IMG/VR virus record: IMGVR_UViG_3300044946_000033
Span: 1-20,377 of that record
Source: a virus
DNA: 20,377 nucleotides
Direction: 5' to 3' (one strand)
Below are positions 9,231-20,100 of the stretch, one piece after another. Below the pieces are notes generated by a model. That model ran no database searches. It was not told the origin of the DNA and saw nothing but the letters and a program-made list of their open reading frames with translations. The position numbers and the translations under genes are program-made. Position 1 is the stretch's first letter, and each line of letters opens with the position of its first letter.

Positions 9231-10553
9231 ATGGACGGCGAAGGCGCAGTATTGGAAGTAGAAGAGTCGCTTGAAACTCCGGGCGGCGACGGAGAAGGCG
9301 CAGGCGAACAACCCGGCGGTGGAGAGCAGCAACAGCAGGAAGACCCCTATTCCTCGAAAGCCAGCCGTGAATACTCGCAATGGCTGAAAGGTCTTCGCGA
9401 GTCCGGCGACCCGACCGCAGCAAAGTTTGCCAGACTGGCCAAAGACAATCACGGCTCGATGTATGCCCTCAAACAGCTTGATCCTAAGGGCATTGATGGC
9501 GTTCGTGAACGGTATGCTCTGCTCGATTCCGTCATTCACAATGATCCGGAACGCGGCGAATTAAAGGGTCCGGAAGCTATCGCAGCTCTCCAAGACTCCG
9601 TTCGGGAGATTGGCGAGATTGACGCGAAGATCGCCGCCGGTGACGCAACAGCACTTGATTCGTTCGATGACGAGATGAAGGCCGGGATCGTCAAGATGGC
9701 TCCGGCGATTCTTGATCTGGCGAAGTCGATGAATCCGGAAGGCTACGCAGCCGCGGTACTACCTCACTTCGTCCAAGCCCTCGCACAGTCTGACTTGGTG
9801 TCGAACTTCAACGGCCTCGTGGACGTGCTGAACGAGCAACCTCCGAAGTGGCTTACGGATTCGCAGAAAACAGCGTGGCAGGCTGACCAGCAGCAGAAGA
9901 TCGTTTCCTTGGCCGCGAACATGGGCAAGTGGCTTAACGCGCAGGCTGAGAAGGCTGGCGGCCTGAAGAATGGTGTTCCACGTGGAACAAATGGCGAAAC
10001 GAAGAAAGACCCTCTCGCAGAACGTGAGGCCGCTTTTAATCAGCGCGAACAAGAGGCCCACTGGAACACCAACATTTCACCGAAGCTCGATCAGCACGCG
10101 GCGACCGAGTTTCAGAAACTCTTTCAGCCCTATGCCAAGAGGCTCAATCTCGATGCGCCAACCGCAAATGCTTTGAAGATGGAGTTCTCCCGTAGGGTCG
10201 CGCAGACCGCAGCAAAAGATGCCAATTACATCGGCCAAATCAAGCGTTACCGGGCGATGAAGAACCCGGATCCTGGGACCGTCCTTAATTTTGCCAAGGT
10301 GCAGTTCGACAAACATGCCAAGTCTGTCATGGAATCGTTAGTCAACGAGCGGTACAAGCCGTTTCTTAATGGGAAACCCCGGCAACCGGCGGCAACCGGC
10401 GGCAAGGGCGCTCCGCCGCCGCCTCCGGGCATCCAGACCGTCACTGTCCGACCAGCTGACGGCACCCACAACCCCAAGATGCGGACGCTTCAGGACGTGC
10501 ACAACAAGATTTTCTACCTCAACAACGGCAAGAAGGTGCAAGTTAGGGCTTGA
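9231..10553 (+). CDS. Probable scaffolding protein
   Basis: 440 residues, with an acidic Gly/Glu/Gln-rich N terminus (residues 1-45), a long, almost wholly helical charged body, a proline run (GAPPPPPG, about residue 397) and a basic C-terminal end (YLNNGKKVQVRA). Acidic N terminus, helical rod and basic helix at the C terminus, directly upstream of the capsid gene, is the usual form of a phage internal scaffold, whose C terminus binds the capsid protein. No protease motif is visible. AGGAG lies only two bases before ATG 9231, unusually close. The name rests on composition and position. Confidence 0.7.
   Translation: MDGEGAVLEVEESLETPGGDGEGAGEQPGGGEQQQQEDPYSSKASREYSQWLKGLRESGDPTAAKFARLAKDNHGSMYALKQLDPKGIDGVRERYALLDSVIHNDPERGELKGPEAIAALQDSVREIGEIDAKIAAGDATALDSFDDEMKAGIVKMAPAILDLAKSMNPEGYAAAVLPHFVQALAQSDLVSNFNGLVDVLNEQPPKWLTDSQKTAWQADQQQKIVSLAANMGKWLNAQAEKAGGLKNGVPRGTNGETKKDPLAEREAAFNQREQEAHWNTNISPKLDQHAATEFQKLFQPYAKRLNLDAPTANALKMEFSRRVAQTAAKDANYIGQIKRYRAMKNPDPGTVLNFAKVQFDKHAKSVMESLVNERYKPFLNGKPRQPAATGGKGAPPPPPGIQTVTVRPADGTHNPKMRTLQDVHNKIFYLNNGKKVQVRA
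10381..10405 (+). repeat. Ten-base tandem repeat inside the scaffold gene
   Basis: GGCAACCGGC occurs twice in a row (10381-10390, 10391-10400), followed by a partial third copy GGCAA. Because the unit is not a multiple of three, each copy is read in a different frame (RQPAATGGKG), and gain or loss of one copy would shift the frame of the last 50 residues. Confidence 0.6.
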
Positions 10554-10808
10554 CACCGCAAAGAATCAGCGGTTTACTGTAATGCAGTAGGCAGGCGAGC
10601 ACAGAAAAGGTCTATTTCCCTTCGGCGAGTACGCCGTTAGAGGCTTAAAAGACGAAAGTCGGGGAACTAGGAGCCTGCCGAATAACAACGATTCGCGCCG
10701 GGGAAGCCGGGATACAAATTAAAGCGTAAGAGCTACTGCGAATCCACTGAATGAGACACGCAGCAGGAGTGTGTAAACACTGCCTGACTTCATTTCAGAG
10801 GGATTCCA
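10554..10808 (+). ncRNA. Candidate structured RNA or long leader before the capsid gene
   Basis: No gene is visible in these 255 bases, but nearly all of them can pair. In order: ACCGC/GCGGT (10555-10559 with 10569-10573); TACTG/CAGTA (10575-10579 with 10585-10589); GGCAGGC/GCCTGCC (10590-10596 with 10673-10679), enclosing CTATTTCCC/GGGAACTAG (10612-10620 with 10662-10670, one mismatch), CGGCG/CGCCG (10623-10627 with 10632-10636) and GAC-GAAA-GTC (10651-10660); GATTCGC/GCGAATC (10690-10696 with 10738-10744), enclosing CCGG/CCGG; and CAGG-AGTGT-GTAA-ACACT-G-CCTG (10764-10786). The ribosome site GAGGG is at 10798-10802. GAAA and GTAA are GNRA loops. An alternative 7-base pairing, GCAGTAG (10584-10590) with CTACTGC (10733-10739), could make a switch. 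No known RNA family was recognised. Confidence 0.5.
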
Positions 10809-12206
10809 ATGGCTTTAGCCACAGAACTAGCCGTAGAAGCGATTGAGCTTGAATCGTTTGTTGAGGAGATTCCCGACCTCCAAGCGCACTTCGATAAGCT
10901 CCAGACGCGCCTTGAAAAAGGCGGCAAAAAGATTCAATGTTCCTTCAACACCAACCGTGGCGGCACCTCGCGCGCGCCGTTCTGGGCCGGAACTCGCGTA
11001 CAGGGCGGAGCAGGGATTCAGCAGTTCGGTCTCGGAACGACAGCACCCATTGGCGGCGACACCTCCTCGGCTCCCTATGTCCCTGCCTGGGGGCGTGGCA
11101 CAGGTTCACAGTTCGTCTCGATGTGCGCCAGCCCGATTCGCTTCGTCAACGTCTGCGAAATCTCGAATCTTGCTCAATACGCGACGGACGGCAAGGAACG
11201 TGGCTTGGTCAAGTTCTCCCGCGAGGAGATGGACAAGTCTCTTCTTGCGTTCGATAACGGCGTTGAAGCGGTTCTGAACCGCGATGGCTCCGGAACTATC
11301 GACCAGATTCCCCTCACGGCGACCATTACCACAGGCGGTTCAGGCGCGCAGACCTCCATCATCGCCGGAATCAACACCGCAGCCTCATTTGTCGATCAGC
11401 AGCAGGTTCAGTTCCTGTCGGCGGTAGGCGGGACGCTCCGTGGCGGCGCTGGAGCCACAGCGACCATCTCTTACGTCGATCCAGTGACCCAGACTTTGTT
11501 CTTCTCGACTGCCCTTCCTTCGGGAACGGCGTTGGGCGACATTATCGTGGTCAACGGCGCAACGGGTTCAGCCGGAAGCTCGGTCTACGGCAAAGACTAC
11601 TGGATTCAGAATGGCAACATCGGGACATTTGGCGGAATCAACATCGCCACCTACCCCAGCCGCTTCTCTTCGCCGACGATCAACTTCGGCGGCACCGGAA
11701 CCATCGTCAATTCGACCGCTCAACGCGTTCAGTCCATCCGGATGCGCGCAATGGGCGATGATTATGACAAGAATGAGAAGTGCTTCTGGTACGCCAACCC
11801 GCAGCAAGGTGTCTCGCTGGCCGGAAACTACTACAACCCCGGCTATACCCGTCTGGACGAGGGTGGAAACGAACGTGTTCCTGACGTCGCCAAGAAGCAC
11901 ATGCAGGACACCTGGGCCGGTGATGAGGTTGTATGGTCTTCGACCGCCGAACCTTCGCGCATGGACAGGATTGTTCCGGATGCCTTCTACTTCGGCGAGC
12001 TGTTCCCGACACGCCTGCATGAATGGACACCGGGCAACCCGATTGCAGCCGTGCCGACAAACGACGGCTCGGGCGCTTCAAATGCCATCGGGACCACATA
12101 CTACGATTCGACCATGTTTGCCTACGAGCGTGCGTTCAACTTGCTCTGCCCCGAAATGCGCCAACAATTTTTTATACAGGGGTTGCCAGTTCCCGCAGAT
12201 TCTTAA
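10809..12206 (+). CDS. Probable major capsid protein
   Basis: 465 residues, directly after the scaffold gene and a long structured leader. The protein mixes an N-terminal helical arm (residues 1-40, ELAVEAIELESFVEEIPDL) with a Gly/Thr/Ala-rich beta region (about 165-290) and a C-terminal region with Trp and Tyr clusters, as expected for an HK97-type shell protein, though no diagnostic motif exists for that fold. GAGGG at 10798-10802 gives a good ribosome site. A GroES-like gene follows soon after, in keeping with a capsid protein that needs help folding. Alternative: another abundant head protein. No N-terminal processing site is evident. Confidence 0.72.
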   Translation: MALATELAVEAIELESFVEEIPDLQAHFDKLQTRLEKGGKKIQCSFNTNRGGTSRAPFWAGTRVQGGAGIQQFGLGTTAPIGGDTSSAPYVPAWGRGTGSQFVSMCASPIRFVNVCEISNLAQYATDGKERGLVKFSREEMDKSLLAFDNGVEAVLNRDGSGTIDQIPLTATITTGGSGAQTSIIAGINTAASFVDQQQVQFLSAVGGTLRGGAGATATISYVDPVTQTLFFSTALPSGTALGDIIVVNGATGSAGSSVYGKDYWIQNGNIGTFGGINIATYPSRFSSPTINFGGTGTIVNSTAQRVQSIRMRAMGDDYDKNEKCFWYANPQQGVSLAGNYYNPGYTRLDEGGNERVPDVAKKHMQDTWAGDEVVWSSTAEPSRMDRIVPDAFYFGELFPTRLHEWTPGNPIAAVPTNDGSGASNAIGTTYYDSTMFAYERAFNLLCPEMRQQFFIQGLPVPADS

Positions 12207-12229: not shown

Positions 12230-12258
12230 TTGACAATGGTGGTCATGACGCGTAAGAT
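12230..12258 (+). promoter_or_regulatory. Promoter of the endonuclease VII-like gene
   Basis: TTGACA at 12230-12235 (perfect -35), a 17-base spacer, and TAAGAT at 12253-12258 (four of six). The predicted start of transcription falls on or within a base or two of ATG 12265, and no Shine-Dalgarno precedes that ATG, which suggests a leaderless transcript. Confidence 0.5.
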
Positions 12259-12274
12259 TAAATCATGACCACCA
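12237..12274. repeat. Perfect 12-base inverted repeat over promoter and start codon
   Basis: TGGTGGTCATGA (12237-12248) and TCATGACCACCA (12263-12274) are exact inverted copies, 14 bases apart. The -10 element lies in the spacer and the right arm includes the start codon. It could be an operator for autoregulation, or fold in read-through RNA to hide the start codon when the late operon is transcribed from upstream. Confidence 0.65.
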
Positions 12275-12855
12275 CAAAGATTTGCCCAACTTGTAAACTG
12301 GAGAAGTCGATCAATGAATTCATTAAGCCTCTACTATGGCGCTGTTACGAATGCGAGAATCAATCGCGCCGTGATCGCCGTCGTAAAAAGCGCGAGGAAT
12401 TCTTGGCGACTAATCCTCAACCTATACGCACCTCAAAGGCGTGCACGATTTGCAAAGAAGATAAGCCTCTCAGCGAGTTCTATTTTGCGAATCGCGCGAA
12501 GGGTATTCTCTCTTCCTACTGCAAGAAGTGCCAAGTCAAGCTCGGTAATGCTCAGCGAGCCGTTAGGCCGCACGGATTTGTGCGACCTAAGTGCACACGC
12601 CTCAAAACAACGGTCGAATGGTTCTTCAATCAGCTTCAAGAGCAAGAAAATCTATGTGCAATTTGCCGCCAACCTGAAATACATCCTGTCAAGGTTGGCG
12701 GCAAGACTCGAATGCTGGCTATTGACCACGATCACAAGACTGGTCGGTTGCGCGGATTGCTTTGTTTTCGTTGCAACACTGCCATTCATCAATTTGAGAA
12801 GCACGGAGATGATTGGGGCGAAAGGGCTCTAACTTATCTCCGCAAATATCGTTGA
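12265..12855 (+). CDS. Recombination endonuclease VII-like nuclease with two extra zinc fingers
   Basis: 196 residues. The C-terminal part is a typical endonuclease VII (His-Me finger) domain: zinc ligands C131/C134 and C167/C170 flank the active centre LAIDHDHKTGRLRG (D154, H155, D156, H157), and N171 follows C170. T4 endonuclease VII resolves branched DNA, but free-standing copies in phages mostly act as homing nucleases. The N-terminal half has two tandem four-cysteine fingers, C7/C10-C27/C30 and C60/C63-C86/C89, with similar spacer patterns (LEKSINEF and EDKPLSEF), indicating an internal duplication. It sits between capsid and GroES-like genes, has its own promoter and looks richer in A and T than its neighbours, all pointing to mobile cargo. 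Confidence 0.88.
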   Translation: MTTTKICPTCKLEKSINEFIKPLLWRCYECENQSRRDRRRKKREEFLATNPQPIRTSKACTICKEDKPLSEFYFANRAKGILSSYCKKCQVKLGNAQRAVRPHGFVRPKCTRLKTTVEWFFNQLQEQENLCAICRQPEIHPVKVGGKTRMLAIDHDHKTGRLRGLLCFRCNTAIHQFEKHGDDWGERALTYLRKYR

Positions 12856-12911: not shown

Positions 12912-13280
12912 ATGTTCCCACGCAAGCCTTTACTGGACCGCGTTATCGTCCGGGAGATTCCGCTTTCTGAGTATTACGAGACGCAGACAGTTGATGGAAA
13001 ATCACTGGAAGCTGATCTTGACGATTCACGCCGCACTGACCGCAGCGACCGTGGCGTTGTGGTTGCGGTGAGCGACAAGGTCGATGACGTTCGCGTGGGA
13101 GACACGGTTTTCTTTGATGAATTCTCTCTCTGCGATCCGGTTTATCTAAATCCGGCGCACAAGCATCGTTCGGATTTGCCGAAATACTGGCAGATGCGCG
13201 TGGCGGATTTGAAGGGCGTGAGCACTGAGCCAATACGCAGGGAACTTGGAATCCACATGGAGGATACCGTTCTTGCGTGA
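12912..13280 (+). CDS. GroES-like co-chaperonin
   Basis: 122 residues. PLLDRVIVREI at residues 6-16 matches the first strand of GroES/Cpn10 (PLHDRVIVKR in the bacterial protein), RGVVVAV (47-53) matches RGEVLAV, and VRVGDTVFF (60-68) matches VKVGDIVIF. Residues 17-45 fall where GroES has its mobile loop, which contacts GroEL, but the sequence differs and is longer. The tail has an added extension. Phage co-chaperonins such as T4 gp31 replace GroES so that host GroEL can fold a large capsid protein, and this gene follows the capsid gene closely. GGAG at 12900-12903 is eight bases before the ATG. The alternative is a head protein with an OB-like barrel. Confidence 0.65.
   Translation: MFPRKPLLDRVIVREIPLSEYYETQTVDGKSLEADLDDSRRTDRSDRGVVVAVSDKVDDVRVGDTVFFDEFSLCDPVYLNPAHKHRSDLPKYWQMRVADLKGVSTEPIRRELGIHMEDTVLA
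13259..13263 (+). promoter_or_regulatory. Shine-Dalgarno GGAGG selecting a TTG start at 13273
   Basis: GGAGG within the end of the GroES-like gene lies nine bases before TTG 13273, in the frame of the next gene. It is a much better ribosome site than that of the longer TTG start at 13246. Confidence 0.5.
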
Positions 13281-13980
13281 TTGTCCTCAATGGTTCCAAG
13301 CTGCTCTAACCCGCATCGGCGGCGTGAATCAATACCGAGAGCCGATCTTCAAACTCGTCTGGTCTGAGAACGAGCGCATGGTCATCGGCGGTCGCTGGAA
13401 GAACGGGTTTGAGGGCTACAAACAAGCTCCAGCGATACCAGGAGAACCTTGCTGGGCGCTGATGGTCTGGGAGCCTGCGGAAGTCTCTGGAGGGTCATAC
13501 GAGAGCTGGCAGCGAGACTTCAGGGATGAAGAAACAGGGCTTTTGGCGGTCGGTGGTTATCCGAAATACGGCGCCTATCGAGTCCTGCAAAAGTTTTTAC
13601 ATCGAGAGATTATTCAGCAGCCTCAAGCAAAGCAGGTGTGGGACGGGCCAATTATTCGGACGGTAGTAACGCAGCAGTTGAAAACCCGAACGTACAAGAT
13701 GGAGCCTTGCGGTTTCATGCTTGACGTCATGCTTCCGATATTGATGGCGTGGAGACGTTTATCAAATCACGCGAAAGTTGCTGCTTTAAGACAGCAGGAG
13801 CAGGAACGGAAAGACGAGCACATGAAGCGGGTGAAGGACGCACGGGACGGTACAAGAATGGGCCGCACCATGCGTTCTTCGCAGTTGGTTCAGAAGCGTG
13901 CCGAGGTTATTGAGCGCGGCATGAAACAGGCAATGGCTTTAGCTTCCCAGTGTGGTTTGGGAATGAGATTGGAGACATAA
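13273..13980 (+). CDS. Conserved-looking phage head-region protein, unknown function
   Basis: 235 residues from TTG 13273 (the longer start, TTG 13246, would add nine residues). The N-terminal half has a pattern I associate with a widespread unnamed phage protein: RIGGVNQYREPIFKLVWSEN, then GEPCWALMVWEP and GGYPKYGAYRVLQKF. The second half is a long charged helix (about residues 165-225; QEQERKDEHMKRVKDARDG) that looks like a coiled coil. It overlaps the GroES-like gene by eight bases and ends directly before the next ATG. Its place between capsid and adaptor genes suggests a head or connector role. I cannot name it. Confidence 0.7.
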   Translation: MRDCPQWFQAALTRIGGVNQYREPIFKLVWSENERMVIGGRWKNGFEGYKQAPAIPGEPCWALMVWEPAEVSGGSYESWQRDFRDEETGLLAVGGYPKYGAYRVLQKFLHREIIQQPQAKQVWDGPIIRTVVTQQLKTRTYKMEPCGFMLDVMLPILMAWRRLSNHAKVAALRQQEQERKDEHMKRVKDARDGTRMGRTMRSSQLVQKRAEVIERGMKQAMALASQCGLGMRLET

Positions 13981-16322: not shown

Positions 16323-17186
16323 ATGGCTGGAAATGGCATCGTTTATCTTCAGGTCTCTGAATTTTCTTTGGCAGGTATTGACCACACCCGCCGCAGAACC
16401 ATCGTCGAAGGTCAGGCGATTGTCGCCGAAGCCCAAAATTCTCTCGCAACTTTGACCATCGTCGCAGGCGGGACGGGATGGGTTGCGAATGACCAATTTA
16501 CCCTTCCGGGTGGTACGGGAGGCATCGGCAAGGTCGCCACAGTCACTGGCAGCGCAGCAGCTACCGTTTCCATCGTCTCGGCAGGCTACGGATACACAGC
16601 GGCTACTGGCGCGGCGGCAACGGCCATTCTGCCATCTTCGGGAAGCGGCTTGACGATCACAACGACCGTGACGGCCGGCGCAGCGCCTATTTTGATCACC
16701 GGCTGGAAGATTGTCTCGAATGTCCTGACGTTCACGGCGGTCAATTCCCTGACTACTGGCGGAGGACAATCAATCACGGTCACAGGTTTCACTGGATCAC
16801 TGTTTTATCTCAATGGAACCTACACCACCTCGTCAGCGACGGCGAGCACAATTGTCGTTCCTTTGACTGCTCCAAATGGATCGGGAACGCAGTATGCTCT
16901 AGCCGTTCTCCAGCCGAATTACACGACCGGAGGCTTGCCGATCAATTACAACTTCATCGGCATCAACGGTACGCCAAATCCCATCCCGACCGTGGGGCCG
17001 CTTTCGACTCCGAATCCGATTCAATTCACGACCTTGGCAGGATCGGCTTTCAATTACGGGGTCAATCTCACCCAGCCCGTGAATCTGATGAAGATTTCAA
17101 GCGGGGTCACCGAAGTATCGAACGGCTCAGCGGTGACCGCAGATACCATTCGGTTTCGCGCGGAGTTCGTGAACAATAACTTCTAA
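16323..17186 (+). CDS. Virion structural protein with glycine-rich beta repeat
   Basis: 287 residues, almost entirely Gly, Ser, Thr, Val and Ala beta strands. Residues 45-102 contain a motif common in phage tail and fibre proteins: AGGTGWVANDQFTLPGG, then GGIGKVATVTGS and VSAGYGYTAATGAAATA. The middle and C-terminal regions (residues 120-287) are further beta domains. No catalytic motif. AGGAGG (16307-16312) lies ten bases before ATG. Its stop overlaps the next start (TAATG), so it is coupled with the large tail gene. A tail or fibre component is the likely role; the exact part is unknown. Confidence 0.7.
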   Translation: MAGNGIVYLQVSEFSLAGIDHTRRRTIVEGQAIVAEAQNSLATLTIVAGGTGWVANDQFTLPGGTGGIGKVATVTGSAAATVSIVSAGYGYTAATGAAATAILPSSGSGLTITTTVTAGAAPILITGWKIVSNVLTFTAVNSLTTGGGQSITVTGFTGSLFYLNGTYTTSSATASTIVVPLTAPNGSGTQYALAVLQPNYTTGGLPINYNFIGINGTPNPIPTVGPLSTPNPIQFTTLAGSAFNYGVNLTQPVNLMKISSGVTEVSNGSAVTADTIRFRAEFVNNNF

Positions 17187-20100
17187 TGCACGGAACTTCA
17201 CAGGGCGTTCCTGTACCTCTTTCGGGGATCGGCGGATTAGTCACATTGGCTAAACCTGAGACGGTCCCCGAAGGCGCATCTCCACGTACATATAACACCG
17301 ATTTCAATGTCGGTTCAGCAAAAACTCGTGCGGGCCTTACTGGAGCCATCACTTACTCGGGCAGCAGCGTAGGACCGTCTGGTGGCGGCGCGGCAGTCGA
17401 TACATCGCTCGGTGGCGCAGTCTGGGCGAATCCTACCAATGCACTTCTGAACACTGGCGTCTATGCGACGGCATCGCTCAGCCCTACCGTCACGCTCACA
17501 ATAACAACGATTCAAGTAGTAAACTTCGGGCCGCGCGTTCCTGGGGGATTGACTGTCACCTTCACAACGACTCCGGTAAGTGGCGAGACCTATACTTTCG
17601 CTGGACTCACAACTTTTACTGAGCTAAACGGTCAATCCCTTGTTGGAGGTGCGGTAACAGGAAATTCGATTTCTTTTCAATATAGTTCAGATCCTCCTGC
17701 ATATGGTCCAGCGTCTGACACCGGGACCGGCAGTTACCAATTCTCAGCTTTCACTGATGCCCTCGATATTACGCATTTCGGTTTCTCGGTTCCATCTACA
17801 AATTCACCTCTCGGCTTCGTTGTCAATGTCAAAGCATATGGTTTTCCAGCAGACTTGACGGTCCAAATGCTCAAGGCAGGCGTGCCGGTTGGGAATACTA
17901 TTTCTATCCCTCTCGGATCATCCGTTAGCACTCTTACTTTTGGCAATTCCAATGATCTGTTCGGTTCTTCGTGGGCTTATTCCGACCTCAACAATACAGG
18001 TTTCGGCGTTCGCATTACGGCCACGAGTCCATTTAATGCAGCAAACGTTTTCGTCGGATACGTGACTCTTCAGGTCTTTGTCGCTCCCGCAGCATGCAAT
18101 ATGAACTGGGTTGGACCATTTGTTGCTCAAAACGGAGATGTAAAAAATCTTTACCTCGACGCGGACGGGAATTTCTGGGTTGAGGACGTGACAAATAATC
18201 AAGGCGTTTTGACTTTGGCAATGGAAGGAATCACGCCGGGAAGCTATGCAGTCGGGATCAACGGGCCTGATGTTGAATATGTGGCAATCTCGAATGGTCA
18301 AAGCGGTTCTGACATGCCCCTTCAATGGACTCCGCGATGGATTGACAGGATCACGCAGGTAGGACCCGGAGCAGCTCCGGCATTTTCTCCCATTGCCGCG
18401 AATACAAACACCTTTGGTATCGCGACGATCACCCAACCTCCGGAAAATTCCGACATCACCGATCCGGGAAATATCTCTGTTTTGATGTGGTCAGCAGGTC
18501 CAAGTTCTACCGCTCCCGGAAATGTCATTACCGTGTTTTATTCGCCATCTTTTTATTCTGGCGCGCCGCAACCCGGAGCAGAGGATATGGTTCTGGTCAA
18601 CGCTTTTAATTCGGGGAATCCTGTCTACGTCTACATCAGCGGGACGGCTTTTGGATCAGGAACCTACTTAGTAACGTCTGTCGGAAACGCCCTTCCTCCG
18701 GGAGTAGATCACTTCCGTTATTACTTCACGGTCCAAGCCGCGACTTCAAATTATCAGCGACTCGTGGAGACTCCTGGTCAGTACCAAATGACCCTGGCGA
18801 CCATGACGACAAGCGTTCCGGTTCCTGGACTTGAAGTCGGAAATGACATCACCATCGCAAGCGCTTCTGTACCTGCGTGGGATGCTCAGTGGCCCATTTC
18901 TCAGACCTTAAATTCTGGGGTCATGCAGATCACGCAGACCAGTGTCACCGGATCAGTCGCGACATACAATTACTCGGTCGTTTCAGGTGCAAATCCGGTT
19001 GTGGGGCAGCTTGTCACAATCACAAACACGGAAAATGCAGATGGAGCGCTGAATGGAACGAATCTGACCATCGTTTCTGTCTCGGGAGGGTCCTCGGGCA
19101 CTTTCACGATCAATGTCTCTGTGACTTCAGCTTCATCTGTCCCTGAAGATGGTCAGGCCACAACCGCAGGCACGATCTTCGCTTTCGATCCCGGCGTCGA
19201 GACTTTAGGGACCTCAGGTAATCCGATTCTAGGAAACTCGACAGGCGGGACTTTGACGTTCGTCTCTTCGGCGGCGCAGTTAATCGGCGTCGGAACGAGA
19301 GAAGGCTCAGTCATCTTCATCACGAGGAATGGATACTACACTGCTCCTGCTCCTCCAGTCACTTTTACTTGTCCTGAAAACACAACTGCCCTTGCGGTCA
19401 CGCAGATTCCAGTTGGACCGCCTAATGTCATTGCCAGAGGAATTATTCTGACTGAACCGGGACAGAACGGAGTGCCGGGCGCAAATTTCTTCATGATCCC
19501 CACGCCCGTTCAGTACATTGTCGAAAACGTCTCTTACACCGCGAGTTCGTTCATCATCAACGACAACACTTCGACCTCAGCGCAATTCAGTTTCACTGAT
19601 TCTGTTCTTTTGGATGCTCTTGCAGTTGACGTGTACGGTTATAACCTCTTCAATCAGATTGAAATTGGTGACTGCGGATGGGTTGCGAGTTATGACAGTA
19701 GGAATTTCTACGGTCTGTGCTGGAATAAGGTTCAGAACTTCGTCAATCTTTCTTTTGACGGCGGCTATTTGCCTTCTGGTCAGTTAGCTCCTTTGGGTTG
19801 GAGCCAGCCCGATATTTATGGTCAGTTGGTCGTGAGTCCGAAATTCGGGAATGCTTATTATATCCAAAACACAAGCGGCGGAACTTTGGGCGTTGCCGGA
19901 TTGATTTCGCAGACCGCTTTCGAGGACGCTTACCAGCAACCAATCATCGAACCGAACACCGCGTATTCAGTGAGAGTCACGGCGAGAATTCCTTCGAGTC
20001 TTACGATAGGAAATCTGGTCATTTCACTGACTGGCGGGGGGATTGTTTACGGTTCTTTCACTCTTCCGTTTGCCAGCATGAATTCGAGCTTTGCAATTTA

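Follow-up and report, generated by a model that had tools for sequence, protein, structure and literature searches.

A putative bistable leader upstream of the capsid gene in phages of probable Acidobacteriota hosts

Introduction

Leaders that let a single strand switch from one helix to another are well known from riboswitches, and autogenous control is established for the coat protein of the RNA phages MS2/R17 and the scaffolding protein of P22. The MS2 coat protein represses the RNA-phage replicase gene through one simple hairpin. In most tailed phages the capsid protein is the most abundant product, and to our knowledge the matching of its amount to the supply of scaffold and genome is known in few systems. 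We know of no description of an alternating-strand leader on a tailed-phage capsid gene.

Phage-carried cis-regulatory structured RNAs include the manA and wcaG motifs, which are linked to metabolism and other genes (PMC2864571; the word “capsid” does not occur in that paper). Glutamine riboswitches are also found in phages, where riboswitches are reported to be rare (PMC9004378). RNA thermometers, including one in the leader of a phage sigma-70 gene, hold the Shine-Dalgarno sequence (SD) in a 5′ UTR hairpin (PMC11182007). A leader of the type presented below was not found described in the literature covered, a partial coverage with a 2017 survey of 224 candidate RNAs outside it.

Results

The capsid gene and its genomic setting

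The window, i.e., the whole stretch of DNA that was analysed, is a 20,377-base virus record with genes for the large and small terminase subunits and an endolysin. A gap at positions 10554-10808 is flanked by an open reading frame ending at 10553 and by the ATG at 10809 of a gene (10809-12206, + strand, as are all leader features below) that a preliminary description had named as the capsid gene. Fold searches with an AlphaFold2 model of the product (16-sequence alignment, mean pLDDT 51) bear this out. Foldseek and VIA-align both return capsids or encapsulins, and the best matches in PDB, BFVD and VIA-align are HK97-fold shells of these two kinds throughout. An earlier model from a 14-sequence alignment was poor (pLDDT 37), and the product has no sequence-family matches. 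Judged by fold matches to a weak model, the gene encodes a major capsid protein of the HK97 fold.

Directly 3′ of the capsid gene is an endonuclease VII/HNH-type gene (12265-12855; phrog_2633, E = 1.6e-27). A perfect 12-bp inverted repeat, TGGTGGTCATGA/TCATGACCACCA with a 14-nt loop (12237-12274), spans the start codon of this gene at 12265 and is possibly a second start-hiding hairpin. Two genes past the capsid gene there is a GroES-like co-chaperonin gene (12912-13280; phrog_3188, E = 4e-4), whose product may help capsid folding.

Relatives are found among IMG/VR contigs and in five contigs of acidobacterial metagenome assemblies, and the latter point to Acidobacteriota as the probable hosts. 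Nucleotide and protein searches of named phage and plasmid records gave no relatives, and there is therefore no annotated or cultured example among them.

Anatomy of the leader

The gap constitutes the 5′ leader of the capsid mRNA, about 224 nt long, with a promoter-like site at its start (10550-10578). This site consists of TTGACA (10550-10555), a 17-nt spacer and TTTACT (10573-10578), and it overlaps the stop codon of the upstream open reading frame. In four loci (the window, L003, L004 and L007) none of 100 shuffles scores as high. Since 10550-10578 is promoter-like DNA, the RNA probably begins near 10585. The preliminary description had treated all 255 nt as one structured RNA candidate; the helices are there, but the promoter-like stretch probably lies outside the RNA and the 5′ third, with one of the two 7-bp helices, is not conserved. 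Overall that reading is partly supported, a strand that alternates between two helices having been overlooked.

The variable 5′ module (10590-10679), drawn from the sequence and the minimum free energy fold, consists of the helix GGCAGGC (10590-10596) with GCCTGCC (10673-10679) and inner hairpins. It is missing or substituted in relatives, and sequence comparison places it outside the conserved core. The two GNRA tetraloops noted earlier are also present, GAAA in GACGAAAGTC (10651-10660) and GTAA in GTGTGTAAACAC.

The conserved core consists of domain A (10690-10744), hairpin B (10746-10798), the SD AGAGGG (10797-10802, 6 nt 5′ of the ATG), the strand GGATTC (10801-10806) and then the ATG. In domain A the helix P1, GATTCGC (10690-10696) with GCGAATC (10738-10744), which is the second 7-base helix first pointed out, closes the hairpins P2 (CCGG 10698-10701 with CCGG 10707-10710) and P3 (10723-10725 with 10732-10734). 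Hairpin B has a lower stem, CTGAATGA/TTCATTTCAG (10747-10754 with 10789-10798), an upper stem (10764-10767 with 10783-10786) and a GUAA-capped tip. The lower stem is the bulged hairpin that had been placed near the ribosome site, and it does adjoin the SD. The internal loop of hairpin B, GAGACA (10753-10758), is present as GAG(A/G)CA in 19 of 20 leaders, and also in the leaders of capsids near 55-60% identity. A kink-turn was considered by eye for this loop and rejected for a misfit in the tandem G-A arrangement.

Two helices share the strand GAATCC (10740-10745). With GATTCG, upstream, it forms P1, of which it is the 3′ side. With GGATTC, which lies downstream and overlaps the SD, it forms a second helix, SDH, in which it is the anti-SD strand; SDH is drawn from minimum free energy, constrained and prefix folds. 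P1 and SDH have five bases in common in the window and therefore cannot coexist. The helices of the region had been called non-conflicting; what matters more is SDH, a conflicting helix absent from that list. SDH belongs to the OFF state and P1 to the ON state, labels that are read from SD accessibility alone, and in the ON state of the window the first SD bases remain paired within hairpin B. The computed structures are mutually exclusive and would govern access to the SD, as in a riboswitch.

No open reading frame of at least 6 codons for a leader peptide starts within 200 nt 5′ of the window ATG, and no terminator-like site is present in the leader. A leader-peptide attenuator was rejected for these two reasons.

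Folding energy and order of folding

The 255-nt region folds at -80.9 kcal/mol compared with -67.5 ± 4.3 for dinucleotide shuffles (z = -3.1), which is the excess of stability that the preliminary description had looked for, and 1 of 200 such shuffles folds as well as the region. Several other stretches of the contig, mostly coding, also have z < -3 in a scan of 405 windows, and folding energy alone does not set the leader region apart. The excess is mainly in the SD hairpin 10740-10806 (z = -4.4); the 5′ third has z = -1.7. The window stretches 13751-13900, 12601-12800 and 17151-17300, mostly coding, are also at z < -3 on the + strand.

Under constrained folding SDH is the more stable of the two in 17 of 19 loci, with a margin of 2.8-9.6 kcal/mol; P1 is favored over SDH in the full leader of L014 and L022. 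The order of events was followed by prefix folding, i.e., the equilibrium fold of each growing 5′ fragment and not a kinetic simulation. In the window the predicted probability of P1 is 1.0 once 10744 has been made and is mostly kept to about 10803; at 10806 SDH replaces P1 (0.93 vs 0.07). Across 19 loci the order is mostly the same: P1 has a probability of 0.82 or more right after its synthesis in 17 of them, and SDH one of 0.80 or more in the complete leader in 16. The predicted P1 does not form in L012 and L061, and the full leaders of L012, L014 and L022 do not settle into SDH.

Our preferred reading, which we hold to be rather probable, is that the leader is a bistable switch acting on translation of the capsid gene, that it rests in the OFF state and that it has a putative effector, which would most likely be an assembly protein. 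The folding data would be fitted equally well by a ligand-free timing device, in which P1 opens the SD on the nascent mRNA and spontaneous refolding then shuts it, so that each mRNA is translated mostly when young; the predicted folding order and the OFF default require no ligand. However, the sequence conservation of the GAG(A/G)CA loop is left unexplained by such a device, and we consider it a serious alternative of clearly lower probability.

Domain A and the search for further copies

The bistable switch with a protein effector has also to be weighed against a metabolite riboswitch, in which domain A would be the aptamer and a ligand would keep P1 closed (ON). The architecture resembles that of translational riboswitches, and in the close set of relatives domain A forms a three-way junction closed by P1, in which CCGG/CCGG is invariant and the joining strand is rich in A/T. 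However, the interior of domain A is substituted in several loci. The GAG(A/G)CA loop, retained where domain A has been replaced, is a candidate binding site and probably serves as one.

Covariance models R1 (domain A) and R2 (hairpin B) were used in further searches. With R1, domain A is found before the capsid gene of 12 more loci (E ≤ 0.009), and neither model gave a convincing copy except before a capsid gene of the window type. In 396 Acidobacteriota genomes the domain A model has seven matches at E ≤ 0.05 per genome, which is below chance expectation, and among these seven only a capsid-linked contig is convincing. A degenerate DNA pattern run over viral contigs gave, among the matches listed, mostly chance matches. 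When 100 pattern loci were searched with R2 (L165-L186 were left out), three matches were obtained, two of them already-known records and one whose score equals that of L009. The element is absent from L191 and L193, found with a second DNA pattern, and these look like chance matches. In these searches convincing copies are seen only before the window-type capsid gene and not before other genes, which makes a metabolite riboswitch less likely, and we regard it as improbable.

Rfam release 15 gave no match at the gathering threshold over the whole window and none to E = 5 over 10500-10860; ARAGORN found no tRNA or tmRNA in the window. No known class had been recognised in the preliminary description, and the sequence/structure family is new to Rfam 15.

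Three-strand covariation in relatives

Twenty distinct loci were compared, with capsid identities from 95% down to about 60%. P1 and SDH can both be drawn in all 20, with 2-5 nt in common, from a list of pairings made by hand. The three-strand comparison uses the hand list because spacer lengths differ between loci and MAFFT did not bring the SD strands into register. In several loci the three strands (5′ P1, shared and SD strand) have changed together: CGGGA/AATTCCCG/GGGAATT in L011, GTCAGG/TCCTGAC/TCAGGA in L014, GGACT/AGTCCT/AGGA in L061, and in L017 GGGTTC/GAACCC with CCAGACG/CGTTTGG. The altered strands sit in several separate lineages of the capsid tree.

Since the pairing list was made by hand, swap tests were run independently of it, in which the best contiguous helix between segments of one locus is compared with that obtained when segments are exchanged between loci. 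By helix score, 0 of 20,000 permutations equalled the observed value for P1 and 0 of 20,000 for SDH; by duplex energy the counts were 0 of 20,000 for the SD pairing and 229 of 20,000 for P1; and a three-strand test that requires the helices to overlap gave 0 of 3000 for each permuted strand, relatedness being only partly corrected in all of these tests. The control with non-partners, the upstream and SD segments, showed no signal (5123 of 20,000).

Compensatory change in relatives had been named as a check on the helices first described. P1 shows changes on both sides; the helix GGCAGGC/GCCTGCC is not conserved. Covariance-model alignments reveal both-side changes for P1, for P3 and, in hairpin B, for the upper stem. 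One spurious minus-strand row (L039, E 0.65) is included in the pair count of domain A and adds some of the changes there. The column pairs 10-96, 11-95 and 51-89 of domain A have changes in several rows and not in L039 alone. Among the closest relatives SDH hardly varies and gives little information either way, and its covariation therefore rests on the distant, hand-aligned loci.

A static leader, serving as an mRNA stabiliser or a ribosome standby site with an accidental second helix, would not be expected to show the covariation of three strands or the results of the swap tests. It is true that 5′-terminal hairpins often protect mRNA, but we hold this explanation to be very improbable.

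The leaders also differ by whole segments. L003 and L005 have capsid proteins that are identical in the tree, and leaders that are unrelated upstream of the shared strand; the shared strand and the SD strand are retained in both. The leader thus seems to be swapped in modules. In the leaders of capsids near 40% identity the SD is hidden by the pairing TTCTCC/GGAGAA, with a predicted SD accessibility of 0.02-0.07. Hiding of the SD therefore appears to be an old trait of the capsid family, shared by leaders that otherwise differ.

An insert in the leaders of L004 and L006 looks tRNA-like by eye: GGTTTCT/AGAAACC forms an acceptor-like stem of 7 bp, and there is a hairpin resembling a T-arm. ARAGORN found no tRNA in this insert. 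The leaders of the distant relatives L007, L039, L045, L054, L056 and L058 have another small hairpin in common, of the ACAGCCGG-GAGAGA-CGGCA type, located 3′ of the promoter region and 5′ of the conserved core.

Two further explanations fare worse than a static leader. An RNA thermometer that hides the SD at low temperature would agree with the position of the SD in a hairpin, but SD accessibility, as predicted by the energy model only, stays at 0.33-0.34 between 10 and 60 °C, with no release on warming, and a thermometer would need neither the conserved loop nor the second helix; it is scarcely credible here. A processed small RNA or a packaging RNA like the phi29 pRNA has in its favor the suggestion in the preliminary description, for which no evidence was found, and a position among head genes, but the SD, which adjoins the ATG in a cis-acting position, is part of the conserved helices, conservation does not extend to the 5′ third, and Rfam has no match, so that its probability is negligible.

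Discussion

The suggestion that the region is a leader controlling capsid yield is backed by its anatomy and by the comparative evidence. For the bistable switch with an assembly-protein effector, the following course may be proposed. During transcription domain A would fold first, with P1 capturing GAATCC; P1 would provide the window for ribosome loading (ON). Once the SD strand emerges, GAATCC would shift to it and lengthen hairpin B into an SD-hiding stem, the OFF hairpin being the resting state. The GAGACA internal loop is the probable candidate site of binding, and the most likely ligand would be an assembly protein of the phage. Among these, unassembled capsid protein would be the most economical choice of putative effector. 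By stabilising the OFF hairpin such a ligand would tune the capsid supply to assembly. Feedback control via the conserved loop is probable, the existence and nature of the effector and the direction of control being inferred. As a further, tentative proposal, such leaders would make up a new RNA family: an autogenous, assembly-coupled switch by which a tailed dsDNA phage controls its own HK97-fold capsid gene, with free capsid or another assembly protein reading the GAGACA loop.

A compact two-state leader conserved across a family of soil phages of probably acidobacterial hosts would add a new RNA family and a testable case of capsid control at the RNA level. In a reporter, point changes can separate the two states, and the question of feedback is thus directly testable.

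Like translational riboswitches, the leader has the closing helix of a folded domain and an SD-hiding hairpin that compete for one strand. It differs from them in that it has no Rfam class, the gene controlled is a virion gene, the interior of domain A is not conserved throughout, and the ligand is putative. The proposed logic is similar to that of MS2/R17 coat protein and P22 scaffolding protein, whereby a structural protein limits a structural gene at the RNA level. However, unlike MS2, the leader belongs to a dsDNA phage and has two alternative helices, and its protein binding is a proposal. It shares with the thermometers of PMC11182007 an SD hidden in a 5′ UTR hairpin, but has no predicted temperature response and possesses an additional competing helix and a conserved loop. 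With manA, wcaG and the phage glutamine riboswitches it has in common that it is a phage-borne, cis-regulatory structured RNA (PMC2864571, PMC9004378). Those RNAs are tied to metabolism and other genes, whereas the leader described here is tied to the capsid gene.
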